The notes under the pieces were generated by a model. That model did no database searches. It was given only the letters and a program-made list of their open reading frames with translations, and had not been told where the DNA came from. Below, piece by piece: positions 1,453 to 53,771 of a DNA stretch of 64,000 nucleotides. This stretch comes from Pyrinomonadaceae bacterium. GTDB taxonomy: Bacteria; Acidobacteriota; Blastocatellia; Pyrinomonadales; Pyrinomonadaceae. The stretch's first letter is position 1. The number at the start of each line of letters is the position of its first letter. The stretch covers positions 1 to 64,000 of the forward strand of contig JACMJZ010000032.1 in assembly GCA_014380365.1 (NCBI GenBank), given 5' to 3'. Both the position numbers and the translations under genes were made by a program.

Positions 1453-1558
1453 CAAGTCCAAAGTCCAAAGTCCAAGGTCCAACATTATCTGATCAATGTT
1501 GGACTTTGGATTGTATGGAGTGAACTTTGGACATTGGACATGGGACTTTGGACTTGGG
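1453..1558. repeat. 7-bp-period inverted repeat arrays, locus P1
   Basis: The left arm repeats AAGTCCA (variants end in AAA or AAG). The right arm carries the complement (ACTTTGG-type) in several copies, so the transcript could fold back. It occupies nearly the whole glnA-glnE gap and ends about 20 bases before the glnE start. The unit is nearly the same as at 17289-17379. Confidence 0.9.
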
Positions 1559-5552: not shown

Positions 5553-5580
5553 GGAGGACAGGCAGGAATGTCTGTCCTAC
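5553..5580. repeat. Palindromic repeat family A, copy 1 (single hairpin)
   Basis: Contains GGACAGGCAGGAATGTCTGTCC. On the minus strand it begins TAGGACAGACATTCC, and the TAG is the stop codon of the PIG-L gene. Other copies lie at 18012-18073 and 45946-46027. Confidence 0.88.
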
Positions 5581-8123
5581 CGGTGCCCGTAACTAATCAT
5601 ATTCGCAAACATCCGATACGCGCCTGGCACCCCGGCGCGCAACTGCCGGTACCAAACCATACTCGTATAGATGTAGTTTCCCTTACCGTATTGTGCGACG
5701 AGCAAGCCGCCGGTTAAGGGAGTCTCTCCGGGATCGTTGGTTGTGAATAGCGCCGTGTAATGCGGGTCCCAGGTTTTCGGATAATAGAGCCCGCGCTCCT
5801 GAATCCAGCTGTTAAAATCCGCAGGCCTTATCCGGTTCGGAAAAGCGAGCAGCGCATGACGTGGCTGGATGAACTTGATTGGCGCGGTCTCCACAGTAAC
5901 GCGTTCACCGCCGAGCGTAATCGGGTAGGGCGCGAGTTGAGGCCGATTTTTCTTCGCGTCAGGATTCCATTCGTTATCTTTGTGATAGAAGACGACGAGT
6001 GTCCCGCCCGCGTTAACAAAATCCAGTAAACGTGAATTTGCGGCAATCAACTCCGGATGAGCTTCGTAGCCGCGATTGTCAATGATGATTGTTTGGTACG
6101 CGCTGAGATCCCCTTTCTGAGCGTCTTCGATGCTCAACGGTTTGGCGCTAACCCCCAAGGCGGAGAGCGACCTTGCCAATGTTTCATCGAAGCTGGGCAA
6201 GAATCCCACACGCAGATTTCCCGCAACGCGAGCGTCACTGTAGATCATCCTGATCGGACGTTCAGTCACAGTTCCCGCCGAGCCTTCCGACTCGACCGAA
6301 AGATTAAGCTGGTCCGGATTCGCTCTTGTTGACCGCCTTGATGGCGCAGCAAATGGCATGGCATTCGACTTTAGTGTTACTTCTCGAGTTTCAATCGTCG
6401 CAAGCGCGAGCCTGCTTCCGGTTTCGAAGCGACGCTGCTTCCGACTACCTATCGCAAGGTTCCCTTTGAACGGCGCATCCAGGTTGTTCATTAGGGTGAC
6501 CTTGAACGTCAGCGCTTGATTGCGTGTTGCCGGCGTCCAAACATAGGGTGACGGCGAGACGCTCTTAATTTCCACCGCAGGCGCTACATCTCGCGCGAGA
6601 TCGGTGTGGAGGGAAAACTTAGCGCCATCGATCTCCAGGTCCGCAATCGCTTCAACGCGTGTACCAAATAACAAGCCGTCGTAAAGGTGCTCTTCCCTGG
6701 GGACGGTGAAGGTGGCAGTCCTGGGAGTGGTTCGATCAACTGTCACAGTCGTTTCCGTATCCGGCAACAGTTGATCTGCCGCTTTCAATTGCGAGTCCTC
6801 GCCCCAACTATTGAAACGGAGCGCGTTGATTTGAAGCGTTCGCACGCCCGGGTTCGTGATTCCGATAGAGAAAGTTGTGTTCACGCCGGGAACTAACGCC
6901 CTGGCGCGCGAGCCCAGTGTCAAAGAAACTCCGGACGCCACGCCGAGCGCCCTGGCGATTCGATCTTCGATTAACTGCGACCGGTGACGATCTGTGGCGG
7001 TCGTGTCTGATGAATTCTGTCCTGCGCGCCAATCGATCAAGCTGGCAAGCACGCGCTCAGGCTGATCGACAAACTCCGTTAACGAGCGGCCGTCGATCTT
7101 AGGCGGCGCAAACTCTTCCCCTATCGCCTCGGGTGTTTCCAGTTCCAATCCCGCGACCGGCGTAGTCGCATTCTCCGGCAGCGGGGGAGCGTTCTTGGCC
7201 TGGCGAGTAAGCCGGTAGCGGATCAATGGCAACTGTGTTGCTTCGATCCGGCGCGCCCTCAACATCTCCGCGATCGACCCCGGCCATGGCCCTTGCGAAG
7301 CGTGCTGCTGTAGCGCCGCGAGCGCTTGTTCCGCGAAAGACCTTCCGCGTACTGGATCGATTTCGTTTGGATCAATCGCAAAGATTCTTTCAGACGTTTT
7401 CTGGCCGTCGGGCAGCTGACCGGTTGCGCCAGCGAAGGCTCTTACAAACATTCTCTGTGCCTGCCAGGGTTTGAGTTGAGTTAGTTGCTCGGGGAACCGT
7501 TTGGGATCAGCGGCTGCGTCGAAGGCTTCGAGTAGTAACTGGCCGGTCGCCTGATGATGGCCATGACCGCGCGACGTATCGTGATTTGTGATGATTACGT
7601 CTGGGCGCAGCTCGCGAATCTTCAAGACCATCCGCCGCAGTGCTTCATCGCGTCCCCAGATTTTAAACGTCTCGTCCGCTGACTTTGAAAAGCCGAAGTC
7701 TCTCAGCCCGAGGAAAAAGGGCGTTGAGCCCTGAATCTGTGCAGCCTTGATAGTCTCTTCGGTGCGAATCACTCCGAGCTCTTCATAAAGCTCCGGGCCA
7801 ACTGCATTCTGCCCGCCTTCGCCAAACGTCGTAAACAGACTGACGGTGTGAACGCCATATTTTCGTCTCAGTACCGTTAACGTGGTCCCGTCTTCATCGT
7901 CCGGATGCGCGGCTACGCACATCACAGTGTAGGCATTCGTGAGGTCAAGCAGCGCCTGATGGAGATCGGCTTTGTTGACCGCTTCAATGGGCGGCGTTGG
8001 GGAAGTGGGAGTCTCCTGAGCACGCGCGCGATGAAACACCCGAAACGCCGGGACCAAAGTAAGCGCCAGCGTAAAGATTAGGAGAATTAAATAGACCGAT
8101 CGTCTAGAGGTGTGCTGGTTCAT
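5577..8123 (-). CDS. Secreted PIG-L (LmbE-like) deacetylase with C-terminal glutamine-amidotransferase-like domain
   Basis: An 848 aa protein with an N-terminal signal segment (hydrophobic residues about 11-27, then ARAQE). The zinc-binding PIG-L motif AHPDDE sits at residues 72-77, and the second metal motif HDTSRGHGHH at 181-190. The middle resembles an Ig-like or NPCBM-type beta domain, and the last roughly 230 residues contain a ThuA/GATase1-like fold (YQTIIIDNRGYEAH, GGTLVVFYHK). The family removes acetyl groups from N-acetylglucosamine-type sugars; the substrate of this periplasmic version is unknown. The stop codon TAG is the first triplet of a family-A repeat. Confidence 0.85.
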   Translation of the reverse strand: MNQHTSRRSVYLILLIFTLALTLVPAFRVFHRARAQETPTSPTPPIEAVNKADLHQALLDLTNAYTVMCVAAHPDDEDGTTLTVLRRKYGVHTVSLFTTFGEGGQNAVGPELYEELGVIRTEETIKAAQIQGSTPFFLGLRDFGFSKSADETFKIWGRDEALRRMVLKIRELRPDVIITNHDTSRGHGHHQATGQLLLEAFDAAADPKRFPEQLTQLKPWQAQRMFVRAFAGATGQLPDGQKTSERIFAIDPNEIDPVRGRSFAEQALAALQQHASQGPWPGSIAEMLRARRIEATQLPLIRYRLTRQAKNAPPLPENATTPVAGLELETPEAIGEEFAPPKIDGRSLTEFVDQPERVLASLIDWRAGQNSSDTTATDRHRSQLIEDRIARALGVASGVSLTLGSRARALVPGVNTTFSIGITNPGVRTLQINALRFNSWGEDSQLKAADQLLPDTETTVTVDRTTPRTATFTVPREEHLYDGLLFGTRVEAIADLEIDGAKFSLHTDLARDVAPAVEIKSVSPSPYVWTPATRNQALTFKVTLMNNLDAPFKGNLAIGSRKQRRFETGSRLALATIETREVTLKSNAMPFAAPSRRSTRANPDQLNLSVESEGSAGTVTERPIRMIYSDARVAGNLRVGFLPSFDETLARSLSALGVSAKPLSIEDAQKGDLSAYQTIIIDNRGYEAHPELIAANSRLLDFVNAGGTLVVFYHKDNEWNPDAKKNRPQLAPYPITLGGERVTVETAPIKFIQPRHALLAFPNRIRPADFNSWIQERGLYYPKTWDPHYTALFTTNDPGETPLTGGLLVAQYGKGNYIYTSMVWYRQLRAGVPGAYRMFANMISYGHR

Positions 8124-8134
8124 GGACTTGTTTT

Positions 8135-8352
8135 GCGGCTTTGCCGCCGCACAGTGCGGAAAGGCTCTGCCTTTCCGGCGTGCGGTTTTTGTTTTCTTTC
8201 ATGAGGCTCTGCCTCATGAATAAGAGGCGCAGCCTCCAATCAATTTAAGAGACTCGACGGTAAGGCAAAGCCTTACCGCACTGTGCGGCGGCAAAGCCGC
8301 AGGCGAACATTGACTGATACAGCCCAATTGGCGGTGCGCGGCAAAGCCGCAA
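8135..8352. repeat. Palindromic repeat family C, copy 1 (hairpin train)
   Basis: Built from nested small hairpins: GCGGCTTTGCCGC, GGAAAGGCTCTGCCTTTCC, ATGAGGCTCTGCCTCAT, GAGGCGCAGCCTC and GTAAGGCAAAGCCTTAC, closed by GCACTGTGCGGCGGCAAAGCCGC, the complement of the opening arm. A further GCGGCAAAGCCGC copy follows. The same element reappears inside the TolC-type gene at 37411-37581. It fills the gap between the PIG-L gene and the ABC permease. Confidence 0.93.
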
Positions 8353-8362
8353 AGAATCTCTG

Positions 8363-10078
8363 TCAGGCGCGAGATCTTTCCAGTCGCGTGGCCACCATCA
8401 TGATTATTCCGATTATCAGCATCAGCACCACTCCGTAGGCTGCCGCCGTTCCCAAGTTAAACTCCCGCAGTTCCGACGCGATGGCAATCGACACCGGCCG
8501 ATTATTCGGCACGAAGATCAACACCGACGCCACATATTCGCCCAGCGCAATTACAAAGGCCAGCAGAGTCCCGGCGACCGCACCGGGCCAAACGAGTGGC
8601 AATGTAACGCGGGTCAACCTGCGCCACCAGCGCGCGCCAAGACTACTCGCCGCTTCTTCGAGCGCTGCGTCCAACTGTTCCATGCTCGCCTGCAAGGCGC
8701 GGACAACCAGCGGCATGAACCGCAGAAAGTAGACCACGGGCAGAATCCAAAACGTACCAACGAGTATGAAAGAACCGAGGAGGGGAGACGTTTGACCGTA
8801 GGCTTCGGCGATAGAAACTGCAACTACAGTCCCGGGCAGGGCCCACGGCACCAGTATCAACCACGAAAGCACGCGCTTCCAGTTTCGTCCACCCTTGCGC
8901 GCCATCACGGCGGCCACACAAAAACTCCAAACCAGCGCGGCACCCGCCGCGATTGCCGACATCGACAAGCTGTTAAGAAAAACTTCGCTGGCGCGCGGAT
9001 CGGAAAAGATCTTTGCGTAGTTTGCGACGGTGTACGAAGGAGGCAACGTCTGCACAGTCCATTGTCCTTCGCTGGCAAAACTGACAAGCACCAGCGTGGC
9101 CACCGGCAAAACGAGGATTAAGGAAAAGATAACCCCACCAGCAATCGCAAGCGCGCGCGCCCGACCGCCGGTGATGGCCTGGCGTTTTTTGGTCGCACCC
9201 TTGAGTGCGGAAGCAGCAAACTTTCGCGTGCCTTCGTAACGCTGAAACACGACAAGCGCGCTCAGTGAGATCAACGCCAGGATCACAGTTTCCGTTACGG
9301 CGACTCCGGCATCGCCGCGCTGCCGCGCCGTGTAGATTTCCAAAGTGAGCACGCGAACGCTGCCCCCAAAGAGGAGTGGCGCACTGAATGAAGCCATCGA
9401 TGTCATGAAAGTAAGCAAGGCTGCGGCAATCAGTGACGGTGTTAGTTGCGGCAAGACCACGCGCGCGAGTACACGCAGTCTGCCGGCGCCGAGGCTTTGG
9501 GCCGCCTCGGCGAGCGAAGCGTCGATGCGGCGCAGGCCCGCGCCGGTCAGCATGTAGAAGAAGGGGTACATCGTGTAAGTGTGAAAAAACAGCAAGGCCG
9601 GCCAACCGCGCAGCGACCAGGGTGAGTTTTCAAGACCGAAGATTGACTGAGCGAAGCGCGCGAGTATGCCCGACTCGCCAAAGAGAAAAATGAAAGCTAT
9701 CGTGCCGACCAGAGGCGGGAGAACCAGGGGCAAGGCCGCCAGCGTGGCAAACAGACGACGGGCTGGGAAAGCATAGCGCTCAAACAGAAAGGCGAGCGGA
9801 ACACCGACCGCCGCGCAGAACAACACTGTAAGGATTGAGACCCCGACGCTGGCAAATATCGATTCCAGAACAATGCTCTGCGACAGCACTTGGCGGTAGT
9901 TTGCCAGTGACCAACCGGCGTCGCTCTGCAGAGACGCGATTACGACATGAAGGTTTGGGTAAAGGACGCCGTAGAGCAGAACGACGCCGACGATGAGCCA
10001 GGGGAGGAGACGCGGAGAAGGGGAGAAGCGGCTACGCGGCGACGGGAACTGGGAAGTTGGCAATTCGTACATATGCAC
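8363..10078 (-). CDS. ABC transporter permease, iron(III)-type, two fused permease domains
   Basis: Forms the inner-membrane channel of a binding-protein-dependent importer. At 571 aa it contains two BPD_transp_1 modules of about six helices each; EAA-loop-like stretches are visible at LAEAAQSLGAGRLRVLARVVLPQ and again at LEEAASSLGARWWRRLTRVTLPL. This duplicated layout is typical of the FbpB/ThiP class. It is the third gene of a set with the ATPase (10274-11380) and the binding lipoprotein (11427-12467). A repeat element separates it from the ATPase gene. Ferric iron is the likely substrate by family, but thiamine or a related solute cannot be excluded. Confidence 0.88.
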   Translation of the reverse strand: MHMYELPTSQFPSPRSRFSPSPRLLPWLIVGVVLLYGVLYPNLHVVIASLQSDAGWSLANYRQVLSQSIVLESIFASVGVSILTVLFCAAVGVPLAFLFERYAFPARRLFATLAALPLVLPPLVGTIAFIFLFGESGILARFAQSIFGLENSPWSLRGWPALLFFHTYTMYPFFYMLTGAGLRRIDASLAEAAQSLGAGRLRVLARVVLPQLTPSLIAAALLTFMTSMASFSAPLLFGGSVRVLTLEIYTARQRGDAGVAVTETVILALISLSALVVFQRYEGTRKFAASALKGATKKRQAITGGRARALAIAGGVIFSLILVLPVATLVLVSFASEGQWTVQTLPPSYTVANYAKIFSDPRASEVFLNSLSMSAIAAGAALVWSFCVAAVMARKGGRNWKRVLSWLILVPWALPGTVVAVSIAEAYGQTSPLLGSFILVGTFWILPVVYFLRFMPLVVRALQASMEQLDAALEEAASSLGARWWRRLTRVTLPLVWPGAVAGTLLAFVIALGEYVASVLIFVPNNRPVSIAIASELREFNLGTAAAYGVVLMLIIGIIMMVATRLERSRA

Positions 10079-10169
10079 CGTGTCGCTGCTTCCCGGTCCG
10101 CCTAAAATCTTACCGCGAAGCGGTTTCGACCCGTAGGGTAGGGGTTTCTGGCGGAAAGAATCGTCTGCA

Positions 10170-10250
10170 TTTCAGGTGCATAGAGTACAAGCTTTAGCTT
10201 GCGTGTCCGGGCGGCGGCAACCTAAAGGTTGTACTCTATACGCTTGTAGG
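10170..10250. repeat. Palindromic repeat family E, copy 1
   Basis: Arms CATAGAGTACAAGCTTTAGC and AACCTAAAGGTTGTACTCTA flank GCGTGTCCGGGCGGCGG. A near-identical copy lies at 39351-39437. It sits between the ATPase and permease genes of the ABC importer. Confidence 0.92.
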
Positions 10251-10273
10251 GTCGCGCGTTCCGGTTGCACACT

Positions 10274-11380
<1,107 letters not shown>

Positions 11381-11426
11381 CAGTAAATCCGATTTTTTCG
11401 GCCCACGGGATTGTTAGTGTTTCGCC

Positions 11427-12467
11427 TCATTTCTTACTGCGTCCGCGAATCTCGGTATCCCAGTACCGCAGCCAGTCGCTGCTCTGCTTGCGCAGCAGAT
11501 CCCAGTCGAGCGGCATCTCGTTGACACGTTCATTCATCCAGGGCGGCAACTGACTGCGATCCAAGTCTGTGCGTACCGGAATCCTATAATATTTTTTCGC
11601 CGCGAGTGTCAGATTATCGGGCGTCGTGACAAACTCATAAAACCGTTTCGCCTCTTCCTCATTCGCCCCGCCGCGAACGATGGCGATGCCGTCGGTGATG
11701 ACAGGCGTGCCGCTGGTGGCAAACACGTACCCGATCGGAAATCCTTTCTGCTCTTTGTAGATCCAAACGTCAGGCAGATTCCATAGACTGACGACACCTT
11801 CGCGTCGCACCAACTTCTGCATCAACAGCGTGCCGTCGGCTGTGTACTCGTGAACATTTGCGTCGAGGCGCCGCAGCCAATCATAGCCCTGATCGGGCGA
11901 GCCCGTATCTTTGTAAAAGCGCCAGATCATAGCGCCAAAGATTGCGCGCATCGAATCCGACGGATTCGGATTTCGAATCAGGATCTTGTTACGCCACTTT
12001 GGATCGAGCACATCGTCCCAATCCTTCGGCGCATCCTCCGGCTTTACCGCGTCGCTGTTGTAAACGATCACTTCCGGCGTTTGATAAGTTCCAAACCAAC
12101 GATCTTGCGTGTCGCGACTCGACTTGGGAACACTGTCTGCCCAGGTGGGCCGATAGGGCGCGAGGAGATTTTCGTCGGCGGCAGTTTGAAACGTAGTGTG
12201 GGCTGCACCCCACCACAGATCGGCCTGAGGCCGGTTGCGTTCCGCGCGCACTCGTTCGAGGATTTCGCGAGACCCCATGTCGAGAAACTGCACTTCAACT
12301 TCCGAATGGATGGCTTTGTAGCGCGCGATAAAGTCGCGCAACAAGTCCTGGCCATGCGGCGTGTAGATTAGGAGTCTGCGAGCTGGAGGTCCGCCCGCGC
12401 GATTACATGAAACGAGGAGTGCCGAAACACAAATAGCAAGAAATAGAAGATAAGCTTTGACGCGCAT
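11427..12467 (-). CDS. Iron(III)-type ABC transporter substrate-binding lipoprotein
   Basis: A 346 aa periplasmic binding protein starting MRVKAYLLFLAI, with a lipobox ending LLVSC, so it is probably anchored to the membrane. The body (LLIYTPHGQDLLRDFIARYK, then ADLWWGAAHTTFQ, then VIVYNSD) is that of family 1/AfuA-type iron-binding proteins. The open frame runs 78 codons further upstream, but that part is encoded by the palindromic element at 12577-12671 and is unlikely to be translated, because it would bury the signal peptide. It heads the three-gene importer operon. Confidence 0.86.
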   Translation of the reverse strand: MRVKAYLLFLAICVSALLVSCNRAGGPPARRLLIYTPHGQDLLRDFIARYKAIHSEVEVQFLDMGSREILERVRAERNRPQADLWWGAAHTTFQTAADENLLAPYRPTWADSVPKSSRDTQDRWFGTYQTPEVIVYNSDAVKPEDAPKDWDDVLDPKWRNKILIRNPNPSDSMRAIFGAMIWRFYKDTGSPDQGYDWLRRLDANVHEYTADGTLLMQKLVRREGVVSLWNLPDVWIYKEQKGFPIGYVFATSGTPVITDGIAIVRGGANEEEAKRFYEFVTTPDNLTLAAKKYYRIPVRTDLDRSQLPPWMNERVNEMPLDWDLLRKQSSDWLRYWDTEIRGRSKK

Positions 12468-14887: not shown

Positions 14888-14896
14888 CTGTCTTTT

Positions 14897-14985
14897 GGTT
14901 TCAGGTTTCAGGTTTCAGGTTTCAGGTTTCAGGTTTCAGGTTTCAGATCTGAGATCTGAGATTCTAGATTTGAGATCTCAGATCC
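14897..14985. repeat. 7-bp-period array, locus P2 (two different units chained)
   Basis: About seven perfect copies of GGTTTCA are followed directly by about six copies of GATCTGA and variants (GATTCTA, GATTTGA, GATCTCA). Both halves keep the 7-base period. The GATCTGA half is partly self-complementary. It abuts the gatC start. Confidence 0.95.
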
Positions 14986-15009
14986 GTGTTTGGCACTCCT
15001 GCCTCCTGC

Positions 15010-17288: not shown

Positions 17289-17379
17289 AGTCCAAGGCCC
17301 AAGGCCCAAAGTCCAAGGTCCAAGGTCAGGTAATCAGAGGTCGAATCTGACTTTGGACCTTGGACATTAGACTTTGGAC
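17289..17379. repeat. 7-bp-period inverted repeat arrays, locus P3
   Basis: The left arm repeats GTCCAAG and GCCCAAG/GCCCAAA. The right arm repeats CTTTGGA and CCTTGGA, its complement. It begins 7 bases from the SDR start and ends about 10 bases from the YceI stop, filling the gap. The unit matches locus P1. Confidence 0.93.
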
Positions 17380-18076: not shown

Positions 18077-18865
18077 CTATCGTCCGGTAAACTTCGGCAG
18101 GCGCTTCTCCAGAAACGCTCTCACGCCTTCGCAGCCGTCCAGAGATTCAAAGCAGCGCATCTGCGCTTCCGTTTCGTAACGCAGCATCTCGTCCAGCTCC
18201 GCGGCCTGACTCATGTAGACAGCATGCTTGGCAGCGGCAATTGCAATTGGCGGTGCATCTCGAAGCCGCTCTGCCAACCCGCGCGTCGCTGCTTCTAATT
18301 CACTGGGCTCCACCACGTAGTTCACAATTCCCAGCCGGTGTGCCTCTGCGGCGTCCATCGAGTCTCCGAGGAAAAACATCTCGCACGCCTTGTTTGGCGT
18401 AACGAGTCGCGGCAGAAAATAAGTGCCGCCCCAATCCGGATGCAGTCCAACTTTCGCGAACGACTGGCTAAAGGTGGCGTTAGTCGAAGCAATGCGAAGA
18501 TCACACGCGAAGGCGAGATTACAACCCGCGCCAGACGCTGGCCCGTTAATAGAAGCAATCACGGGTTTGGTCATCTGGCGAATCGCGGTAACCACTCGGC
18601 GCGCCGAACCAAGCAAACGAGAAAACTCCTCCGCATCGCGACGTTCGATCAGTTCGGCCATCGCGGCGATATCGCCGCCGGCGCAAAATGCCCGCCCCGC
18701 TCCGGTGATTACTACGACGTGAACACTGCGATCGCTGCTGGCCGATTCAAGCGCCTCCGCCAGGTCACGTCGCATGTGTCCGGCAAGCGCGTTCAACTTC
18801 TCCGGACGATTGAGGGTTATCGTCGTGATGCCGGAGTCTTCAGCGATGTCGATGTTGTCGTACAT
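18077..18865 (-). CDS. Enoyl-CoA hydratase/isomerase family protein (PaaG-like)
   Basis: A 262 aa crotonase-fold protein that would hydrate or isomerise an enoyl-CoA. Visible are the oxyanion-hole segments GRAFCAGGDIAAM and NGPASGAGCNLAFACDLRIAS, and the C-terminal MRCFESLDGCEGVRAFLEKRLPKF typical of the 1,2-epoxyphenylacetyl-CoA isomerase side of the family. The start MYDNIDIAED at 18865 excludes six array-encoded residues. It lies downstream of boxC-boxB and another hydratase on the same strand, consistent with a later step of ring-product oxidation. Confidence 0.87.
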   Translation of the reverse strand: MYDNIDIAEDSGITTITLNRPEKLNALAGHMRRDLAEALESASSDRSVHVVVITGAGRAFCAGGDIAAMAELIERRDAEEFSRLLGSARRVVTAIRQMTKPVIASINGPASGAGCNLAFACDLRIASTNATFSQSFAKVGLHPDWGGTYFLPRLVTPNKACEMFFLGDSMDAAEAHRLGIVNYVVEPSELEAATRGLAERLRDAPPIAIAAAKHAVYMSQAAELDEMLRYETEAQMRCFESLDGCEGVRAFLEKRLPKFTGR

Positions 18866-18866
18866 T

Positions 18867-18939
18867 CGAGTTTCGAGTTTCAAGTTTCAAGTTTCAAGTT
18901 TCAAGTTCGGCAATTAACTCGAAAACTCGGAACTCGAGA
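18867..18939. repeat. 7-bp-period arrays, locus P4
   Basis: The left arm repeats GAGTTTC then AAGTTTC. The right part (AACTCGAAAACTCGGAACTCGAG) is its approximate complement. It fills the whole gap between the two enoyl-CoA hydratase genes, one base from the downstream start codon. Confidence 0.92.
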
Positions 18940-19884: not shown

Positions 19885-20610
19885 TCAAAGCGAGCCGCGC
19901 CAAACACTCATGGGCTCGCGAGTAGTTTTCGCGGCGAAGTCTAGTTCTTCTGTCAGTGATCCGGCAACAAAGCCGCGCAGGAATAAGCGCGTCACATTAT
20001 CAACCAGTTCCGACACTTTAAGCTTTCCGCGCGGGTCATACCAGTTATAGATCCAGTTCATCATTCCAAACAGCGCGTAAGTTGCCACAGTTAGATCGAT
20101 TTGAGCTGTGCTGCCCCGAGTGCCCGCCTGTTTCTGCTGAATCTCTTTAAGAATCTTTGTGGCGAGCTTAGTGTATTTGTCTTTCTTGGTCGAGACGTGC
20201 GTGTGCAGGTCCCCCGCCAGAGATTCGGCCTCGTGCGATAACACCTTCATCTCGGCCATGTTTGCCGCAAAGAACGAGAGGTGATTGTCGATGAATATCC
20301 GGAGCTTGCTTAAAGGATCGTTAACTTCACGCAGGCGCTCCTCCAGGCGTTCGAGCACGCGCCCGAAGCAATTGTCCTGGATCAGGAAGAGCAATTCTTC
20401 TTTGGATTTGCAATAGTGATAAAGGCCGGAGAGGCTAACGCCCGTGACGCGCGCGATGTCGCGCATCGTGGTGGAGTGGTAATTCTTCTCCGCAAAAATA
20501 CGCGCGGCGTTGCGGAGAATAAACTCCAGCTTCTGATCGTAACGGGAAATTTCGGATTTCGAAATTCGAATTTCGGATTTAGGTTTTGCTTGAATAGTCT
20601 CTTTCACCAC
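19885..20610 (-). CDS. TetR/AcrR-family regulator of the box cluster
   Basis: A 241 aa repressor-type protein with an N-terminal helix-turn-helix (IFAEKNYHSTTMRDIARVTGVSLSGLYHYCKSKEELLF) and a helical ligand domain. It lies between boxB and the enoyl-CoA hydratases, so an acyl- or aryl-CoA inducer is plausible; a candidate operator lies upstream of boxC. The only start codons before the conserved helix are GTGs at 20610 and 20607. Residues about 9-22 (KPKSEIRISKSEIS) are therefore encoded by the 7-bp repeat array, an unusual low-complexity leader. Confidence 0.88.
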   Translation of the reverse strand: MVKETIQAKPKSEIRISKSEISRYDQKLEFILRNAARIFAEKNYHSTTMRDIARVTGVSLSGLYHYCKSKEELLFLIQDNCFGRVLERLEERLREVNDPLSKLRIFIDNHLSFFAANMAEMKVLSHEAESLAGDLHTHVSTKKDKYTKLATKILKEIQQKQAGTRGSTAQIDLTVATYALFGMMNWIYNWYDPRGKLKVSELVDNVTRLFLRGFVAGSLTEELDFAAKTTREPMSVWRGSL

Positions 20611-20672
20611 TTAATTGTCCGACTCGAAGTGCAAGGAAATCCGCATTCCGAAATTCGCAATTCGAAATTCAC
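20543..20672. repeat. 7-bp-period inverted arrays, locus P5 (partly inside the TetR gene)
   Basis: The left arm (20543-20581) repeats ATTTCGG/ATTTCGA units within the TetR coding sequence. The right arm (20636-20672) repeats ATTCCGA/AATTCGA units and overlaps the TGA stop of boxB. Confidence 0.92.
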
Positions 20673-24135: not shown

Positions 24136-24234
24136 GGAGGCGAATCTGTTCTGGTGAACGGCGCGGTCTTCAAAACCGTCAGTGAGACTGTGAGAACAGG
24201 CTCAGGTAGGTTCGATTCCTACACGCCTCCGCCA
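24136..24234 (+). tRNA. selC: tRNA-Sec (anticodon TCA)
   Basis: A 99-base tRNA with encoded CCA. The acceptor GGAGGCG pairs with CGCCTCC, with an A-A at the eighth position. The D stem has 6 pairs (CTGTTC/GAACGG, TGGT loop), as in bacterial tRNA-Sec. The anticodon stem GCGGT/ACCGT holds the loop CTTCAAA, anticodon TCA at 24170-24172. A long variable arm and the T arm GTAGG-TTCGATT-CCTAC complete it. The discriminator base is G. It is flanked on both sides by 7-bp arrays. selB lies 27 kb away on the same strand. Confidence 0.96.
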
Positions 24235-24239
24235 ACGGC

Positions 24240-24340
24240 GAAAGGATGAAGGATGAATTATGAAGGATGAATCCAAGCCGCGACAGCACCGTTAACATCC
24301 GGCTATCCGATTCATCCTTCATCCTTCTGACTTCATAATT
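24240..24340. repeat. 7-bp-period inverted arrays, locus P7
   Basis: The left arm repeats AAGGATG (with AATTATG). The right arm repeats TTCATCC, then TTCTGAC and TTCATAA. It begins 5 bases after tRNA-Sec and ends 4 bases before the dprA start codon. Confidence 0.93.
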
Positions 24341-25484: not shown

Positions 25485-25590
25485 GAGTAAATGGTAAATG
25501 GTCAATGGTAAATAGAAGAAATCGCGCGGATATCGTCGCGAACATTGGGCACAGCCACCGCGATTTACCATTCACCATGCACCATTTACC
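25485..25590. repeat. 7-bp-period inverted arrays, locus P8
   Basis: The left arm repeats GTAAATG (with GTCAATG). The right arm repeats TTTACCA, TTCACCA and TGCACCA. It spans the dprA-topA gap, starting 6 bases after one gene and ending 9 before the next. Confidence 0.94.
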
Positions 25591-25599
25591 AAAATAGCA

Positions 25600-34045: not shown

Positions 34046-34132
34046 GTTTCGAGTTCCGAGTTCCGAGTTTCGAGTTAGAAATATCCGAATCGGACGCGAA
34101 CTCGAAACTCGAAACTTGGAACTCGAAACTAG
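34046..34132. repeat. 7-bp-period inverted arrays, locus P9
   Basis: The left arm repeats GTTTCGA and GTTCCGA. The right arm repeats CTCGAAA and CTTGGAA. It occupies the entire adaptor-pump gap, 2 bases from one stop and 6 from the next start. Confidence 0.94.
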
Positions 34133-47597: not shown

Positions 47598-47812
47598 CGA
47601 TCCACGAAATGACACGAAACAGGGATGAAGCGCCAAAGGCGCGGAATATAATAGCCTGGGGCAGCGCCCCCGGTAGCGAAAGCAAGAATAGCAGAGCTCT
47701 GAAGGAGCGAAATCTCGCGTTCGATGTCGAGCCTTCAGCGCTCCACGCCTTTTCCAACTTAACCCCCTGGGGCGTTGCCCCAGAGGGTTGCATCACGCGC
47801 CTTTGGCGCTTT
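47598..47812. repeat. Composite repeat: half family-H element plus a long palindrome
   Basis: GATCCACGAAATGACACG (half of family H) precedes a palindrome opening AGCGCCAAAGGCGCG and CTGGGGCAGCGCC and closing GGCGTTGCCCCAG and CGCGCCTTTGGCGCT. It ends 64 bases before bshA and gives it a false N-terminal extension. Confidence 0.85.
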
Positions 47813-51212: not shown

Positions 51213-51285
51213 ATGCCGGGTGCCAGGTGTCGGGTGCCAGGTGCGAGGTGCTAGGTGTCAGGTGCCAGGTCGGGGATGCCAGATA
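51213..51285. repeat. 7-bp-period array, locus P10 left arm
   Basis: About nine units of GTGCCAG with variants GTGTCGG, GTGCGAG, GTGCTAG and GTGTCAG, starting at the VWA stop codon. Its complement forms the right arm at 51769-51834, on the far side of the four-helix gene. Confidence 0.94.
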
Positions 51286-51392
51286 TCGCATTGGATATTA
51301 GTTTCATGGATCAGGTGGCGGCTGGATATCAAGCTCCGGGCGGCTGACAATTCAAACTCGCAAGTAACGTTCGGTTCAGAAGGAGGACTCCC

Positions 51393-51749
51393 ATGAAAGG
51401 CTTTCGCGAATTGCGAGTTGGGCAGAAGGCAATGGACCCGGTTGAAAAGGTTTATCTTCTGACTCAGGATTTTCCCAGGCAAGAGACTTATGGACTGATG
51501 AGCCAGGTTCGGCGTGCGGTTATCTCAGTTCCTTCGAACATTGCAGAAGGGCATACGAGAGAGCACATCAAGGAGTACCTTCATCATCTTTCAATGGCCC
51601 AAGCCTCACTGGCAGAGGTTGAAACCCAACTCGAAATTGCAGCAAGATTAAAGTATCTGCGTTCCAATCAACTTGCAGAGTTACTGCCGGAGATCGGTTC
51701 TCTTGGAAAGCAGCTCTATGCTCTGCGCAACGCATTGATCCGAGCTTGA
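51393..51749 (+). CDS. Four-helix-bundle protein (23S rRNA intervening-sequence / bAvd-like)
   Basis: A 118 aa all-helical protein: FRELRVGQKAMDPVEKVYLLTQDFP, MSQVRRAVISVPSNIAEGHTR, EYLHHLSMAQASLAEVETQLEIA and LGKQLYALRNALI. This is the PF05635 pattern (S23p/IVP), whose members form pentameric basic bundles and include the Avd partner of diversity-generating reverse transcriptases. The ribosome site AAGGAGGA is very strong. It is not in an rRNA operon; instead it is the only gene between two 7-bp arrays of opposite orientation. Function in the cell is unknown for the family outside DGRs. Confidence 0.9.
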   Translation: MKGFRELRVGQKAMDPVEKVYLLTQDFPRQETYGLMSQVRRAVISVPSNIAEGHTREHIKEYLHHLSMAQASLAEVETQLEIAARLKYLRSNQLAELLPEIGSLGKQLYALRNALIRA

Positions 51750-51758
51750 GCCGTTGCG

Positions 51759-53771
51759 ATGCCTCTAACCGATACCCGACACCCGATACCCGGCACCCGG
51801 TCCTCCGACACCCGACACTCGGCACCCGATACCCTGGCTCCGCCCCACGCCCACTCCATCATTATTGGCACCGCTGGTCACATCGATCACGGTAAAAGCG
51901 CGCTAGTCGAGGCCTTGACCGGGAAAGATCCGGATCGCTTACCCGAAGAGAAGCGGCGCGGGATCACCATCGACCTTGGTTTTGCGGATCTGGCACTGGG
52001 CGACGTGCGAGTTGGGTTCGTCGATGTTCCTGGGCATGAACGTTTCGTAAAGAACATGCTGGCCGGCGTGCATGGCATCGATGCGGTGGCACTCGTGATC
52101 GCTGCTGATGAAGGCGTGATGCCTCAAACCCGCGAACACTTCGACATCTGCCGCTTGCTCGGCGTTCAAAAAGGCCTGGTCGTGATTACGAAAACGGACC
52201 TGGTCGAGGAGGACATGCTCCCACTCCTGCGCGGCGAAGCTGAAGAGTTGGTTTCCGGATCGTTTCTCGAAGGCGCGCCCGTTGTCCCGGTGAGCGCGCG
52301 GAGGGGCCAGGGTCTGGACGAGCTACGGATGATTCTTCGCAAGATCGCAGCGGAAGTCCCTGCCCGCTCGGCGGATTTTGTTACGAGACTCCCGGTTGAT
52401 CGGGCGTTCACGATGAAGGGCTTCGGCGCCGTAGTTACTGGAACCCTTGTCTCAGGCGAGATTTGCGAGGGCGCTGAACTGGAGCTGCTGCCGGAAGGTT
52501 TTCGCGTGCGCGCGCGGGGCGTGCAGGTGCATGGCGCGTCTGTGCGTTGCGCCCAGCCCGGTCAACGCACCGCCGTGAACCTTGCCGGCATAGACACGAG
52601 CGCAATCGAACGGGGCATGGTGCTGGCGCATGTCGGCCGTCTGGTCGCGACCCAAATTATCGACGTCGAATTGGGAGTTTTGCCGGGCGCTCCCCGAGCG
52701 ATTCGAACGCGCGCGCGAGTTCGCGTGCATCTTGGCTCCGCGGAAGCACTGGCTCGCGTCAGGGTGCTGAATTCCAGCAACGAAATCGCTCCCGGCGATA
52801 CCGGCTTTGCTCAACTACGACTCGAGAGTCCGGTGGTGGCTTTGCACGACGAGCGCTTTATCATTCGCTCATATTCACCCGCGCAGACCATTGCTGGCGG
52901 CCGTGTGCTCGATCCGTCGGCGACAAAACATCGCGGCAAGGAGTTAGCCAGCACCGCAGAGCGGTTGCGGACCCTGATGAATCCGCATCGACCGGCAAAG
53001 GTTGCCGCCTTTGTGCAAGCGTCTGGAGACAGCGGGCTGAAACTTGCGCAACTCGCCTCGCGAACGGGCTGGACCACGGAAGTGTTATCCCGAGTGGCCA
53101 GGGAGGCGCAAGCCGAGGGAAGTGTCCTTGATGTTGATGGCGTGTTTATCGCTCGCGAAAGTCTGGAACGTCTCTCCCGAGCGGCACTGGAGGAAGTTAG
53201 ACTCCATCACATGCGCCAGCCACTCTCGCGCGGCTTCGCCAGAGAGACACTCCGAGAGCGACACTTCGCTCACGCCCCCGCCGAGGTCTTCAGGGGCGTG
53301 CTGGCGGGACTGGAAAGCGAAGGCGTGCTAATCGCGGAAAAGGATTTGGTGCGCGCGGCGGAGCACAGCCTGGATCTGTCGGGCGCCGATGGCAAAACAA
53401 GCGATCGGATCACCGGAGTCTACCTGAACGCCGGACTTGAAACGCCTTCACTGGAACAGGTGATGGAACGCGCGGGCGTTGCCGCCGCTGAGCGAGCGCA
53501 TGGAAGGAAAATCCTGCAACGCCTGGTTGATAGTGGAATGTTAGTGCGTGTGCAAGGGGAGACGTTTATTCATCTTCACGCACTCGAACAATTGAAAACG
53601 CTGCTGAGTGAGTACGCGTCGATGCATGAGCCGGAGAGGCTTATCGATGTCGCCGCATTCAAGGAGTTGGCCTGCGTTTCGCGCAAATATGCGATTCCTT
53701 TGCTCGAATATCTCGACCGTGAGCGGATTACCCGTCGCGCTGGCGATGGGCGCGTTATCTTAAAGTTCTGA
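51759..53771 (+). CDS. selB: Selenocysteine-specific elongation factor SelB
   Basis: Carries Sec-tRNA to the ribosome at UGA codons marked by a SECIS hairpin. The 670 aa protein has the GTPase domain ([11 protein letters not shown] at 37-47, [13 protein letters not shown]), two beta-barrel domains and a C-terminal series of winged helices that bind SECIS RNA. The only ATG before the G1 motif is 51759, so residues about 4-26 ([20 protein letters not shown]) are encoded by the 7-bp repeat array. A CTG, ATC or ATT start nearer residue 26-34 is the alternative. tRNA-Sec lies at 24136-24234; selA and selD are not seen. Confidence 0.93.
51769..51834. repeat. 7-bp-period array, locus P10 right arm (inside selB frame)
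   Basis: Units GATACCC, GACACCC, GGCACCC and GACACTC in tandem, with one 8-base slip in the middle. This is the inverse complement of the left arm at 51213-51285. Confidence 0.94.

Follow-up and report, generated by a model that had tools for sequence, protein, structure and literature searches.

Described heptamer repeats and the array between dciA and gatC

Intergenic hairpins between co-transcribed genes are familiar from REP/BIME elements, and REP sequences have no period of seven. The arrays analysed here would also form intergenic hairpins, but they have a period of seven and no body or ends common to the copies. Heptanucleotide repeats known as STRR were reportedly described in cyanobacteria by Mazel in 1990. 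In the sections of the published accounts covered here, the GGGAATC heptamer repeats of Xanthomonas have a period of seven, are dispersed, and lie mostly in intergenic sequence between co-oriented ORFs, near the ORFs (PMC4692102). TAACTGA direct repeats of Beggiatoaceae, cyanobacteria and Bacteroidetes are described as intergenic and often within nucleotides of a start codon, and 36 sets are split by related 7-mers (PMC4679880, sections covered). Both papers, in these sections, cite Mrazek 2007 for the over-representation of heptanucleotides among long prokaryotic SSRs and for slippage as a proposed origin of bacterial heptamers; polymerase-contact slippage was proposed to account for the length of seven in long SSRs (Mrazek 2007, as cited in both papers).

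Compared with the covered part of the Xanthomonas account, our arrays share the period, the dispersal, the mostly intergenic location and the convergent inverted pairs; unlike the single G-rich, G-quadruplex-forming unit of Xanthomonas, they comprise many units under a degenerate consensus, and their pairs also lie between tRNA genes (PMC4692102). They resemble the TAACTGA repeats, as set out in the sections covered, in period, intergenic position, proximity to start codons and the presence of related 7-mers within one set, but TAACTGA is one dominant unit that is rarely inverted, whereas many units and frequent convergent pairs are found here (PMC4679880). The LSSR/STRR accounts covered contain no Acidobacteriota example and no common consensus or polarity, unlike the arrays reported here. 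A literature search for heptamer or heptanucleotide repeats together with Acidobacteria found no paper, subscription journals being mostly outside its coverage. Repeats of seven bases, also as convergent pairs, are already known; what is new is that many units obey one consensus, that their polarity is fixed across Acidobacteriota and that hairpins occupy tRNA gaps.

The window, a stretch of 64,000 nucleotides (contig C8:1-64000 of the genome labelled G000), contains dciA (PF05258, 15010..15471), gatC (PF02686, 14591..14887) and gatA (Amidase, PF01425, 12997..14487), all assigned by domain matches and all on the minus strand. Its GatA is nearest (83%) to the MAGs Chloracidobacterium sp. UBA6041 and Blastocatellia bacterium MGR_bin138, followed by Pyrinomonadaceae MAGs (79 and 78%) and Pyrinomonas methylaliphatogenes (72%); judging by these matches, this soil-type bacterium is an acidobacterium of the Pyrinomonadaceae neighbourhood. 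The period-7 array occupies positions 14897..14984 and much of the dciA-gatC gap; on the coding (minus) strand it starts 25 bases past the dciA stop codon and stops 9 bases short of the gatC start. Read directly from the sequence, 14897..14945 consists of seven exact GGTTTCA units and 14946..14984 reads GATCTGA GATCTGA GATTCTA GATTTGA GATCTCA GATC. The initial annotation had described two heptamers joined in one array with the phase kept, and this is confirmed: no base is gained or lost at 14945/14946, and the 7-base step is continuous. It had also counted about six GATCTGA-type units; the repeat type holds, but the count is five whole units plus 4 bases.

The array is far outside chance expectation. 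The lag-7 segment 14897-14984 scores 55, compared with a maximum of 12 over 60 first-order Markov simulations of the window, and the window contains 18 lag-7 segments where the same simulations gave a mean of 0.5 and a maximum of 4. TRF reports the array as two rows, one of 7.1 copies at 100% match and one of 5.7 copies at 80% match. The array belongs with the heptameric tandem SSRs of the LSSR/STRR type, having 7-bp units placed head to tail beyond chance expectation. A CRISPR array is ruled out by the contiguity of the units, which have no unique spacers between them, and the array contains no GGG and so lacks the G-rich, G-quadruplex type of unit. No terminator-like site (GC-rich stem plus T run) was found within 14888-15009. 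Folding predicts a 14-bp RNA stem within the diverged sub-array (14944..14986, minus strand; 14986-14973 pairing with 14957-14944), and the fold of the entire dciA-gatC gap has a z of -2.65. Elsewhere in the window, an Acido-Lenti-1 RNA (RF01687) match at 47629-47673 (minus strand) scores 38.1 bits against a cut-off of 37.

A genome-wide class with one degenerate consensus and a fixed strand

We scanned 853 kb (17%) of the 4.98-Mb draft genome for further arrays. At score 12 this sample holds 92 lag-7 segments; lags 14, 21 and 28 come next, as multiples, and each of the other lags from 3 to 30 that are not multiples of seven gave 0-11 segments. Array density in the sample is 127 per Mb, and the genome holds some hundreds of intergenic heptad arrays, of which the gatC array is one. 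Lowering the score to 10 gave 122 arrays; two that were not flanked by genes on both sides were dropped, and gene context was counted for the other 120. With genes called by a simple home-made codon-score script, a non-standard tool, 103 of the 120 arrays are intergenic, and the arrays are therefore dispersed and mainly intergenic, as in the LSSR/STRR type. A gene boundary is no more than 40 bases away for 93 of the 120, and 25 of these 93 are at tRNAs. Co-directional gaps are preferred, with 81 of 89 arrays but 72% of intergenic bases, whereas divergent gaps, with 19% of intergenic bases, are avoided (4/89). Counted per gap of 40-400 bp, an array is present in 63/375 co-directional and 2/47 divergent gaps.

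Units aligned by rotation, in the direction that leads from the closest gene boundary into the gap, yielded the consensus RKDYSRR with 4.30 bits, compared with 3.15-3.27 bits when strands were flipped at random and 2.36-2.58 bits when columns were shuffled. On the outward strand, 58 of 93 arrays have a majority unit that fits this consensus at 7/7 positions; on the other strand 6 of 93 do. Dinucleotide and trinucleotide counts on the outward strand of the arrays are strongly skewed (AG 369 vs CT 53; GT 314 vs AC 39; AGT 177 vs ACT 11), and the corresponding counts at 994 array-free boundaries are AG 2574 vs CT 2268 and GT 2113 vs AC 1901. At other Acidobacteriota-dominated loci, the 5' arms, oriented by arm order alone, gave AG 264 vs CT 39 and GT 286 vs AC 18. 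Among 117 family genomes, 104 contain the consensus as a tandem triple more often than the mirror image of that triple (median ratio 2.4). The consensus is not universal, the mirror pattern being at least as common in the remaining 13/117. The mirror triple is the commoner one in G105, G108, G027, G026 and G028, for example, which may follow a different heptamer rule. We also considered whether the consensus is linked to the published heptamers of Beggiatoaceae, Xanthomonas and Nostoc, and rejected this: each fits at 6/7 positions outward, but 45% of random heptamers reach at least 6.

The consensus changes how the two halves of the gatC array should be read. The initial annotation had called GGTTTCA and GATCTGA two different heptamers. 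Placed in the consensus register they become GTTTCAG and ATCTGAG, which are alike at positions 2, 4, 6 and 7 and so are not unrelated words. Their three differing sites all change at one unit boundary. Since both units are variants of one loose seven-base pattern, a switch in step is ordinary for such arrays.

Convergent pairs, tRNA gaps and turnover in relatives

Arrays less than 400 bp apart are mostly inverted copies of one family, with a mean inverted score of 16.0 for 21 neighbouring pairs vs 4.8 for random pairs. Within a pair, one arm begins at or near a stop codon and the other stops a few bases before the next start. Thirty-four of 36 pairs in the window's own genome are convergent, and the remaining two have a tRNA gene between the arms. 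Pairs in other genomes, oriented with weights from the own genome, are convergent in 29 of 34 cases, one of the 29 being a poly-G/poly-C run that is to be discounted. Convergent, closely spaced pairs of the Xanthomonas kind therefore occur in the class, the gatC array itself having only its internal 14-bp hairpin. The covered part of the Xanthomonas account counts 70 and 75 inverted pairs that converge, describes the same outward preference for them, and gives few heptamer pairs in Nostoc (PMC4692102).

Six convergent pairs in the window are predicted to form RNA hairpins, with fold z from -9.3 to -1.7. Two belong to the GTCCAAA family, at 1454..1558 between co-directional ORFs (z -6.3) and at 17292..17379 (z -6.2). 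The pair at 34046..34130 (GTTTCGA family) has the strongest predicted fold (z -9.3) and that at 20549..20670 (ATTTCGG family) a weak one (z -1.7). The other two lie at 24242..24327 between tRNA-Sec and dprA (AAGGATG family, z -4.6) and at 25487..25591 between dprA and topA (GTAAATG family, z -5.4). The tRNA-Sec gene (24136-24234, plus strand) also has a heptad array 13 bases upstream; the convergent pair lies just downstream of the gene, and dprA follows. Further along, two arrays (51214-51270 and 51766-51834) flank a small ORF within 51214..51834, in opposite orientation as judged by eye.

At locus L165, 27 tRNA genes lie on one strand at 5555-12312, with an internal 392-aa ORF and heptad arrays in many of the gaps. 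Arrays are present in 16 of the 26 gaps of at least 25 bp in this cluster. Because arrays lie between tRNA genes, the feature is not tied to translation, and a pure translation signal is unlikely as the whole story: the same convergent pairs occupy the tRNA-cluster gaps. Plausibly, selection tolerates the hairpins and may even retain them, as structures that insulate co-transcribed genes from one another or serve in RNA processing.

We also asked how the arms of a pair relate to each other. Arm-to-arm copying, scored as mirrored variant order, was rejected, as 4 of 49 pairs reached p<0.05 (Fisher p 0.98). Exact mirrors are few (39/39 at L137 8784-8960 and 30/30 at C5b 191650), and the unmirrored variant order argues, for most pairs, against compensation and against copying between arms. 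The L137 site consists of perfect 39-base inverted heptad arms around a 99-base spacer, with the flanks inverted too, and resembles the termini of a larger palindromic element.

Orthologous gaps were compared at 30 family loci, including the window's own; three without a gatC match, one without a dciA match and two with a dciA end that could not be placed were left out, leaving 24 measurable. A heptad array or pair is present in the dciA-gatC gap of 11 of these (G000, G086, G104, G001, G113, G115, G118, G021, G036, G109 and G039), which span eight genera and have gaps of 36-123 bp and units such as GATTTTG, GCAGTTG, AGTTTTC and GATCTGA. The 13 gaps without an array comprise ten of 4-24 bp and three of 350-697 bp; G100, scored as lacking an array, has a short one overlapping the end of dciA. 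Two loci of genus g19 (L122 and L124) have ~700 bases between dciA and gatC, perhaps with a small gene. The dprA-topA gap, 121 bp with a convergent pair in the window, measures 4 bp in G097 and G093 (between protein matches), and a single array in the window at 18865..18907 (TTCAAGT, GTTTCRA family) corresponds to a convergent pair of the GTTTCRA family in the orthologous gap of G100.

Given that differing arrays occupy one orthologous gap in 11 of 24 genomes, the period outlasts any single sequence, and presence and absence across relatives indicate that arrays are gained and lost whereas their period and polarity reappear. The claim of the initial annotation that the period and not the sequence is maintained therefore stands in part: period 7 with varying units is found genome-wide, in relatives and in one orthologous gap, but a loose motif persists too. 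Period and loose motif persist, rather than period alone.

Origin of the unit switch

The initial annotation had argued that simple replication slippage would not be expected to change the unit while keeping phase. This argument fails, because a unit altered by point mutation and then multiplied by 7-base slippage necessarily stays in phase, and because in-phase switches are found repeatedly in this genome and in related ones and have been published for Beggiatoaceae. The search for other unit-switch arrays that the annotation had suggested was run and showed such switches to be common: GTGTCGG changes to GTTTCAG in phase at C5b 10541, further in-phase switches lie at C20b 16444, C5b 309784, L148 and L175, and L213 holds GGATCAG, GTACCAG and GTGTCAG units in step. 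Also at L213 (2235-2343), TACTGAG and AAATGAG alternate as a 14-base higher-order repeat. Junctions between unlike blocks keep the consensus register in 9 of 19 cases, several of the other ten being separate arrays with a spacer, and among the 35 arrays that have five or more whole units, 7 have a first and a last unit differing at three or more positions.

We consider it probable that the gatC array arose by 7-base replication slippage and point mutation within an intergenic heptad class that has one degenerate consensus. The GATCTGA half would be the older, mutated and diverged part, the seven exact GGTTTCA units would represent a recent expansion of one variant, and the array may have grown by replication slippage in 7-base steps, accompanied by point mutation. 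Phase would be kept because each added unit is 7 bases long and homologous to its neighbour. Exact copies directly beside diverged ones argue for slippage with mutation, as do the 7-nt indels by which Cyanothece strains differ and the TAACTGA sets interrupted by related 7-mers in the sections covered of PMC4679880. Against it, the switch retains no stepwise intermediate, the three differing positions having all changed within a single unit. Neighbour similarity does not add to this evidence: in a detection-independent lag test on 33 arrays, identity was 0.799 at lag 7 and 0.776 at lag 21 (p 0.13, not significant), and a similarity gradient along arrays was set aside, its permutation test being positive but detection-biased. 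Slippage alone leaves the fixed convergent polarity, the consensus common to many loci and the shared family of both arms unexplained.

An unlikely alternative to slippage is that arrays at different loci exchanged sequence in register, by ectopic recombination or gene conversion, and so brought the two halves together, the common positions setting the register and homology keeping the phase. The sharpness of the switch, the alternating units of L213 and the presence of GTTTCAG and ATCTGAA-type arrays elsewhere in the own genome (C5b 10541, C20b 16424) are consistent with such an exchange, but four common bases out of seven offer little homology. Used as a query against its own genome, the array returned itself and partial, diverged matches, and the best of these, at 90% over only 58 bases, also counts against recombination. 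There is thus no second copy that would point to a misjoin, and an assembly join at the switch is scarcely credible. Draft assemblies may well collapse short repeats, but the switch with its flanks has no second copy, and in-phase switches occur at independent loci and in independent assemblies. It is very unlikely that the arrays are dispersed copies of a small MITE- or REP-like mobile hairpin, with units that drifted later. Fixed polarity, lineage-specific gap filling and the same heptamers at many loci would fit it (the GTCCAAA 18-mer occurs 38 times in G000, 57 in G100 and 0 in G086), but none of the body, palindrome or ends expected to be common to REP/BIME or MITE copies was found for the 32 spacers tested in 853 kb; these have no dispersed copies, the one strong match set being a spacer that holds tRNA genes.

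Unmirrored arms and unique spacers leave room for a directional process working at both gap edges, in which DNA ends or a hairpin would be extended by repeated copying of a short template and then rejoined. We regard this as improbable, even though the convergence of 34 of 36 pairs (with a tRNA gene between the arms of the other two), the same family but differing variant order on both arms, the outward-strand bias and consensus in unrelated families, and the repeated gain at one gap all favour it. No enzyme for it was found among the candidates Ku, RVT_1 and Y1_Tnp: Ku is present in only 21/116 family genomes and absent from the most array-rich ones, RVT_1 is present in 34/116 and absent from array-rich genomes such as G003, G050 and G030, and Y1_Tnp count is uncorrelated with array density overall (rho 0.14, p 0.13). 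By this distribution, none of the three is required as the generating machine. Genus g23 taken alone shows a weak correlation with Y1_Tnp count (rho 0.36, p 0.026, 39 genomes). This comparison set 117 pattern rows against searches of 116 family genomes, with G073, missing from the Y1_Tnp rows, scored as lacking all three, and its array densities were based on rounded genome sizes. The window's own genome has three Ku matches, with sites given as C23:22804-23346 and C5:388316-389666. A stronger version, in which Acidobacteriota heptads are laid by a directional machine from the gap edges inward with RKDYSRR as its recognition consensus, so that convergent pairs with unique spacers result, and switches mark changes of template rather than slippage, is a speculation that we hold to be quite improbable.

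The preference of bacterial tandem repeats for seven bases is an old open question. The genome studied here and related ones combine a unit that can vary as long as it fits a consensus with a strand set by the edge of the gap and with repeated filling of the same gap; slippage, directed writing and selection on hairpins are therefore separable by comparison of close strains.
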